DNA of 64,000 nt, from positions 12,915,580 to 12,979,579 of the forward strand of contig NC_091104.1 of assembly GCF_024713975.1 (NCBI RefSeq), read 5' to 3'. A model generated the notes under the pieces. It was not told where the DNA came from. It saw nothing but the letters and a program-made list of their open reading frames with translations, and ran no database searches. The DNA is from Paralichthys olivaceus. Its lineage: Eukaryota > Chordata > Actinopteri > Pleuronectiformes > Paralichthyidae. A program made the translations under genes and the position numbers. This document shows positions 35,205 to 38,200 of the stretch, one piece after another (position 1 is the stretch's first letter; the number at the start of each line of letters is the position of its first letter).

Positions 35205-38200
35205 TCAGACAAGGACTCCATATTGTTTCAGAACTTGTGTGTATGCTGCGATCTTGCCCTCAACGTTCTTTTCCGCCTGCTTGGTCAGCTTGACCATTGT
35301 CTTTTTCTTGGTGTAGCGGAGCTTGGCCTTCTCCTTTCTCTTCTCCTCCAGGGTGGCTGTGATGGCCTGGTACTTCCAGCCGACCTCATGTGCCAGACGG
35401 CCGAGGAGGGCGTACTATGAGGGGGAAAGGGAGTGATTCACAGTTAACATCTGCAAAAAAACCATTCTACCAAACTAGGTTTATACGACCAGCAGCAACT
35501 AAAACTACTACAAATGCTAAAGAACACTGAATTCCATAAGAAACATTTTCCATACTGCATTTAACCACTTGATTATATGATCAAAGGACACAACTTGTTC
35601 TAGACTCAACTCAGTAATCAGATCCGTTTGTCTCATCAATGGATGATCAGTTTAGGAATATAGATTTCATCAATGTCAAGCAAGAACTGTTGTGGCAGGT
35701 GAACTTAGGCTTTCTGATGTGTTCCAATTTTACATTTATTAAAGGCTTACCTTGCGAGTGGGCTTCAGACGCACAATCTTAAGAGCAGCTGGGACGACCA
35801 TACGCTTCCTCTGTGGGACAAAATTCACAAGTCAGATAAAAGAAGAAAGGGGCATGACTACACACTGCTCAGGCAGCATGTCTCAGACATTTGTTTGTTT
35901 TCAAAGGTCACTCAAACAAGGTAGGTAAGGTATTTAGATTGACATCACAGACAGCAGAGATGAAGCCATGTGTGGCCCATAGGGAATATGGATGTGCAGT
36001 TCTTTGTTGCAGCTCATCACCTTGTCATAGGGCGGGGGGATGCCGTCAAACACCTTCAGCCTCTCCAGAGCAGCCTGACCTCTCTTGGTCTTGTGGGGCA
36101 ACATGCCTGAAAGCAAAAAGAAAATTTTAAGTTCAATAAAATGTCAAATAGTGTCGAATGCAGCCATTACAAATCGTAAATTTGTCCAAGCACAAATGTA
36201 CACCCCACTGAACTCAGAAATCAGATCCGATAAAGTTTGTCTCATCAGAAGATGATCAGCTTCGGGATAAAGAGCTCATCAATGTCAAATGAGGAACAAG
36301 TTGTGCTGGAGCAAATGAACAAAAACAATTCTGATTTGCCAGTTTAAGACTAAGTGTCTGTTTCTCCCTTTGAAGCCTGATTACATTTCATGAAATGCTT
36401 CTTTATCGTGGTTAATAAAAACATCTTTATTAGCTAAATTTCACACCTTTGTTAGTCAGTTTTTCTGCAGTCCTGGTCCTCTAGACAAATTTGTGGTCCC
36501 AGTTCAGTCATTTGCAGACAACCTAAGATTTCAACAGACTTTGACTTGCCTGCTAAACCTTGTTTCTCAGAATATGAAGAAACAATGTAACTACTTGACA
36601 GCATAGGTTTCCAGCCAGGTCTTGCTTTTAGTGCACAGATTAAAAAAGCCAAATGTTTAAGATCTTCAAGTGTTATTTCAGGTTTCTCAATCTGTTTCAG
36701 AGGTTAAGTGAAGGTTTTTGGCAAACTGGCCACCATCTTAGGTCAATGGGTTTCAAATTTCCCAGGTGTGTTTACAATGCATGTCAATTTCCTTAATGTT
36801 AATGTCCATTTAAATTGATAAAATCAGGCTAAGAATATAATCTGCACTGAATTAACAGTATTTAAGTTTCATTATCTAGATTCTTGCCACATTCTCACCT
36901 CTGACTGTCCTCCAGAAGATCCTGCTGGGAGCTCTGAAGTGGTATGGGCCACGAGAGGGGTTGGTGTTCATCCTCTTACGCAGGAAAGCGAGGTACTTCA
37001 CTGAAGAGGGCACAAATATACTTTAGTACAGGTGACAAATACTTAACTCCAAGTTGTGGAAACCATTACTTCAGTATGGTAATGCTGATGTCTCAGATGG
37101 TAGTGCATGTGAGGTATTCTCATGGTCATTTAAACTCGAATTACAGTGAAAAATCATCATCATTGACAAGCATGTTCAAAAGCCTAAATGGAAATAAAGG
37201 TGTCACTTACGCTTGTTGCGGTAGAAGTTGCCAGAGATTTGGATTCCCTCACATCTCACAACCACAACTTTGTGACCTGAACACAGATGAGAACATAAGT
37301 TAAACATTTGAAATGAACAAAGCCATTAAAATACCTTGCAGCTGTATGCTGTCTCAGATGGTAGTGCATGTGAGTTTTCTCAAGGTCGTTAAACTCAAAA
37401 CAGGTAGCTCATCACCGACAGAATGGAAGATTACTCAAATGTGCCACTTAGTATTAAGTAAGTTGTGTTCAGGTACATTCTAAACAAACTTTAACAGATA
37501 AGCAACATTCACAAGTTAGATCTCAATTCTTACTTTATAAAACTCACCCAGCAGAACCTGTTTAGCCACGAGGGCAGCGAGCCGACCAAGTAGATGGCCC
37601 CTGCCATCAAGTAGCAGAACCTGCAGGTTTAAAAGACAGAGGGACAGACATTTTAATTCTAACGTAAGCTTCAGCGTCACTTTACAAGATATAGTTAACC
37701 ACATGAAGAATGCTACGTCTTTAACAACTACTCGATCCTAATCAAGTTTGAGTGAACTCCTCATAATCGAGATTTGTAAATAATAACTTCTCAAAGTTGT
37801 TCAGGATAAATCCATGAAGATGCACGTTTTTCCCCCATGAGCTCTGACGGCCGCATGGACACCAACTACCGCTTGAGCTACGTCGTTAGCTTAGCATCAC
37901 CATCAAAGCACGCCAGCGCGGTTACTGTGATTTTACCTTCAAATAAGGCGGATGGAAATTAAAGCACGATTATCACGAGTCAACATCGGTAAAATCGCAC
38001 ATACGTCATTAGGATTTTAATTTAACGAGGGCACGAGCTAAAGCCAACAAGCTAACAGCACTGGCTCGTCAGGGAAGCTGCCATGATGGAGGCATGTCCA
38101 CTGGGCTGGAGCCTAGCTGCCTCAAACGTGTTCAAATTTCGCATTAAAACAAACATCAAACTAAACAGAGATTACACCAAAATGTACCTGAGATTATCCC

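Follow-up and report, generated by a model that had tools for sequence, protein, structure and literature searches.

U50-type box C/D RNAs in introns of rpl13a in the flatfish Paralichthys olivaceus

In human and mouse, the box C/D RNA U50 (SNORD50) is carried by a non-coding gene. The human host, SNHG5, has been studied as a lncRNA, and mutations of U50 have been reported in human breast and prostate cancer (PMC5192221). An earlier note on a 64,000-nt stretch of the Paralichthys olivaceus genome (contig C12, positions 12915580-12979579; hereafter, the window) had placed U50-type RNAs in two introns of the ribosomal-protein gene rpl13a, which raises the question of which gene hosts U50 in this fish and how the host came to differ from that of human. 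Analysis of the window, and of the genome to which it belongs (588 Mb, 25 contigs), indicates that rpl13a very probably does host U50, with an RNA in intron 4 that would guide 28S C2848 and G2863, and a probable intragenic duplicate in intron 6 that may guide C2848 but probably not G2863.

The rpl13a gene and its intronic RNAs

The minus-strand gene was confirmed, as read from its exons, to encode ribosomal protein L13a. Splice sites and reading frame define seven coding exons on the minus strand, running from an ATG at 38303 to a stop codon read from the sequence at 35207-35205 (span 35205-35207), so that the coding span is 35205-38303. The exons yield a 205-residue protein whose sole Pfam match is Ribosomal_L13 (6e-22) and whose top PDB matches, among the best 60 of 91, are L13a/uL13 chains. 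Introns 1 to 6 lie, in order, at 37621-38282, 37277-37547, 37001-37210, 36107-36898, 35811-36020, and 35415-35750. Next to rpl13a on the minus strand (42836-45228) are the exons of a gene for a CAAX prenyl protease, where two reading frames match the Pfam families Peptidase_M48_N and Peptidase_M48; we take this gene to be zmpste24. Farther along the same strand (48935-53557) is a single open frame of 1540 codons with, by eye, many C2H2 zinc fingers, which is presumably rlf-like.

Each of introns 2 to 6 holds one Rfam-matched box C/D RNA, all on the minus strand. SNORD33/32-family RNAs (RF00133, cut-off 44 bits) occupy intron 2 (37348-37422; 64.5 bits) and intron 3 (37087-37170; 70.4 bits), SNORD50 occupies intron 4 (36211-36287; RF00278, 47.8 bits against a cut-off of 42, E 5.6e-7 for the window), and SNORD34 occupies intron 5 (35876-35955; RF00147, 46.1 bits against a cut-off of 38). 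The RNA of intron 6 (35608-35678) also has SNORD50 as its best match, at 36.9 bits, below the RF00278 cut-off of 42 (E 0.00056 for the window). Across the window, the gathering threshold is reached by four Rfam matches, which belong to three families and are all inside rpl13a; at E up to 1 the whole window gives six, namely these four, the intron 6 match, and a SCARNA7 match that is outside the rpl13a set and far under its cut-off. Intron 1 has no snoRNA at gathering or at E up to 1. The coordinates 35605-37420, given earlier for the U50 pair, in fact cover nearly all of the five snoRNAs.

The SNORD33/32-type RNAs of introns 2 and 3 and the SNORD34 of intron 5 are the families expected for rpl13a. 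Since the same stretch precedes box D in both SNORD33/32-family RNAs (CACAUGCACUACCA), the intron 2 RNA appears to resemble a second U33 and not human U32A. For the U50 pair, a covariance search of the rpl13a introns had been proposed, and its outcome bears out the assignment in full for intron 4, where SNORD50 is found at gathering, and in part for intron 6, where SNORD50 is the top match and falls under the cut-off. We therefore describe the intron 6 RNA as SNORD50-like and do not file it as a family member. Other candidates at 35603-35685, including SNORD36 and SNORD99, were each below their own cut-off. The box C consensus of box C/D RNAs is RUGAUGA, and a scan of both U50 copies for this motif found none; the C box reads UUGAUGA in each, one base off the consensus, which Rfam tolerates, and the C box is not defining for the SNORD50 family. 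The C, D' and D boxes of the intron 6 copy are identical in reading to those of intron 4.

Guides, duplication, and the state of the intron 6 copy

Guides were scored against a 35-base 28S segment that derives from mouse primer ends and not from P. olivaceus; the six bases between the two primers are assumed, as is that nothing further lies between them. The D' target, presumably G2863 in human numbering, and the box D target, C2848, both fall within this segment. In the mouse primer pair, 28S_2614, the reverse primer is the complement of TCCGTAACTTCGGGATAAGG (PMC8789897). Against the mouse-based segment, the intron 4 guides pair at 12/12 positions for box D (C2848) and 13/13 for box D' (G2863; 12 Watson-Crick pairs and one G-U), and the bases they select for modification, a C and a G, are 15 apart, as in the mouse U50 sites Cm2613 and Gm2628 (PMC3753356). 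The box D guide of intron 6 forms 12 consecutive pairs (positions 2 to 13), and its D' guide is mismatched at positions 1, 4, and 11 and forms G-U pairs at 7 and 12. Over its first 11 positions this D' guide, with three mismatches and one G-U, is equalled by 600 of 20,000 shuffled guides, and the three remaining guides (D and D' of intron 4, D of intron 6) are each equalled by 0 or 1 of 20,000. As judged by these pairings, the C2848 guide of the intron 6 copy is intact and its G2863 guide is degraded, so that the earlier claim of two fitting guides in both RNAs holds for intron 4 and, in intron 6, for box D only.

An exact 24-mer containing both 28S sites had no match in the genome assembly; either the assembly lacks rDNA or the fish sequence differs at the site. 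The sequence surrounding the G site shows wide conservation, occurring in an earthworm-transcriptome entry, a mite primer, and a fly primer. At the C2848 position the earthworm entry reads T, unlike the C of vertebrates, and the target of the C2848 guide is therefore not universal.

The origin of the second copy was addressed by aligning the 15 intron pairs of rpl13a, with 200 single-base shuffles per pair. Introns 4 and 6 scored 83 against a shuffle maximum of 33 and introns 2 and 3 scored 72 against 29, while introns 2 and 5 (28) were slightly above their maximum of 24; the remaining 12 of 15 pairs did not exceed theirs. By alignment, the U50 copies of introns 4 and 6 are paralogues, as are the SNORD33/32-family RNAs of introns 2 and 3. 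The likeness of introns 4 and 6 starts ~24 bases before the C box, which implies that flanking sequence was copied too. Duplication within the gene best explains the second U50 copy, the score of 83 against 33 including the 5' flank. In chicken, intragenic duplication has been named as the likely principal origin of new snoRNAs (PMC2653536).

The distances from snoRNA 3' end to 3' splice site in introns 2 to 6 are 71, 86, 104, 65, and 193 nt, and the pairing of the snoRNA flanks in these introns was equalled by 133, 182, 0, 12, and 66 of 500 shuffles, respectively. In mammals, a distance of ~70 to 80 nt is best for box C/D release, and external stems can help RNAs that lie at other distances. 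For the U50 of intron 4, the flanking sequences form a predicted external stem (36176-36320, minus strand), with a duplex of -28.5 kcal/mol and a fold z-score for the RNA plus flanks of -3.29 (0/200 shuffles as good). The strong stem predicted for intron 4, at 104 nt, and the lack of one in the predictions for introns 2 and 3 suggest a fit to the distance rule; for intron 5, at 65 nt, a modest external stem is predicted. The external stem of the intron 6 copy is within chance (fold z -0.82), and, together with the distance of 193 nt, this suggests a poor fit to a working RNA. When flanks were exchanged, the upstream flank of intron 4 and the intron 6 downstream flank formed a duplex of -21.3 kcal/mol, and the three other cross pairs of the intron 4 upstream flank gave -8.1 to -11.9, as expected if an external stem predated the copying.

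The best reading of the intron 4 U50 is that of an ordinary box C/D methylation guide of a known family, with a host gene that differs from that of human and mouse. If expressed, the RNA would be freed from its intron after splicing, bound by box C/D proteins, and would guide 2'-O-methylation of 28S at the equivalents of C2848 (box D) and G2863 (box D'), 15 bases apart. A segment comprising U50 and flank would have been duplicated inside rpl13a to give the copies of introns 4 and 6, either of which may be the older, and the intron 6 copy may still be able to guide C2848, though probably not G2863. A tentative alternative, to which we give somewhat less than an even chance, is that the copy in intron 6 does not work as a guide and is a pseudogene in decay. 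Its sub-cut-off Rfam score, its damaged D' guide, its distance from the 3' splice site, and its lack of a significant external stem are consistent with decay; however, it shares the C, D', and D box sequences of the intron 4 RNA, and its C2848 guide retains its run of consecutive pairs, as would a working guide.

Host genes of U50 and SNORD35

Human RPL13A has snoRNA slots in introns 2, 4, 5, and 6, and intron 6 is the slot of U35A. In the fish gene, no match to SNORD35 (RF00211) is listed in intron 6, and the matches listed for 35100-38400, 23 in number at E up to 10, include no SNORD35. Mouse Rpl13a carries SNORD32a, 33, 34, and 35 (PMC4234469), and human SNORD35A and SNORD35B are in RPL13A and RPS11, respectively (PMC8393311). 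Thus, the SNORD33/32 type and SNORD34 of the mammalian set are also present in fish rpl13a, whereas the fish gene lacks a SNORD35 match and has U50 in intron 4 and the U50-like copy in intron 6.

In a genome search with RF00211, in which 58 of 13,748 candidates were scored, 0 of 6 matches were on the rpl13a contig. Three SNORD35 copies (66.4, 59.9, and 56.9 bits) sit at C5:9179886-9181392 among exons that read as rps11 (Pfam Ribosomal_S17). SNORD35 in RPS11 is common to this fish, with three copies, to chicken (PMC2653536), and to human (PMC8393311). Another match (locus L005, 1501-1587; 36.8 bits, cut-off 36) runs antisense to a long reading frame that encodes plakin-like repeats and was read as chance, so that a score close to the cut-off can arise by chance; two further fish matches, at 28.9 and 25 bits, are below the cut-off of 36. 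At E up to 1, matches also occurred in 10 of 14 control genomes, none above the cut-off.

The difference in U50 host between fish and human put forward in the earlier note stands, with SNORD50 in rpl13a intron 4 here and in SNHG5 in human (PMC5192221). The human RNAs SNORD50A and SNORD50B (U50 and U50') share family RF00278 with the fish intron 4 copy, which has the C2848 and G2863 guides, and both hosts hold two copies, in introns 4 and 5 of SNHG5 (U50A and U50B; PMC5192221) and introns 4 and 6 of rpl13a. In contrast to SNHG5, the fish host is a ribosomal-protein gene, and its second copy differs in scoring under the Rfam cut-off and in having no good guide for G2863. On sequence evidence, a small RNA in a different host gene from that of human and mouse is a real but modest finding. 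No literature on U50 in fish rpl13a was found among open-licence titles and the starts of abstracts, and it may be published elsewhere; the terms U50, SNORD50, and RPL13A are absent from the main text of a Xenopus methylation paper (PMC8797249) and from that of SNOntology (PMC3349704).

How the two hosts arose can be weighed with data from other animals. One explanation, which we regard as evenly balanced, is that U50 resided in rpl13a in the bony-vertebrate ancestor and moved to a non-coding host of SNHG5 type in the line leading to mammals, while a SNORD35 copy came into mammalian RPL13A. The three SNORD35 copies in fish rps11, with none found in rpl13a, agree with this, as does chicken, in which Table 1 of a 2009 survey gives U35 in RPS11 (and U32 in KPNB1) and has no entry for U33, U34, or U50, or for RPL13A as a host (PMC2653536). 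SNORD50 has been reported as detected in chicken (PMC2832892), yet U50 and an RPL13A host are missing from that table, which fits U50 inside an unassembled gene; the same survey found no non-coding snoRNA host in chicken besides a gas5-like one, and names U50HG among the non-coding hosts known in human and mouse (PMC2653536). However, a gap at RPL13A in the chicken assembly is itself inferred, and the study that detected chicken SNORD50 reported it absent from mouse (PMC2832892), where others blotted U50 in all organs analysed (PMC3753356), so that its SNORD50 detection is not reliable and carries low weight. The chicken data therefore only weakly favour rpl13a as the first U50 host.

Alternatively, U50 might have entered rpl13a in the ray-finned line from an SNHG5-type host, by retroposition or recombination, which we consider rather unlikely. 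Distant duplication of snoRNAs, retroposition included, has been described in rhesus monkey (PMC2832892), but retroposed snoRNAs may originate from mammals (PMC2653536). Moreover, a genome-wide RF00278 search gave the intron 4 copy as its sole match at E <= 0.001. This is weak evidence against a second locus, since 63 of 66,179 first-look candidates were scored and the intron 6 copy was not among the matches listed, so that the absence of further U50 loci is not established. A fuller history, to which we give a little under an even chance, is that U50 first resided in rpl13a in vertebrates, that the cancer-linked non-coding gene SNHG5 took it over at a later stage, and that mammalian RPL13A lost U50 and gained a SNORD35 copy, possibly from RPS11.

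If a constitutive ribosomal-protein gene was the earlier home of U50, SNHG5 would be a carrier of secondary origin, with the snoRNA as the old conserved part rather than the lncRNA; the same rRNA methylations would then be under different gene control in fish. In sponges, the introns of RPL13A contain H/ACA RNAs (PMC3412847), which indicates that the cargo of this gene has varied between lineages.
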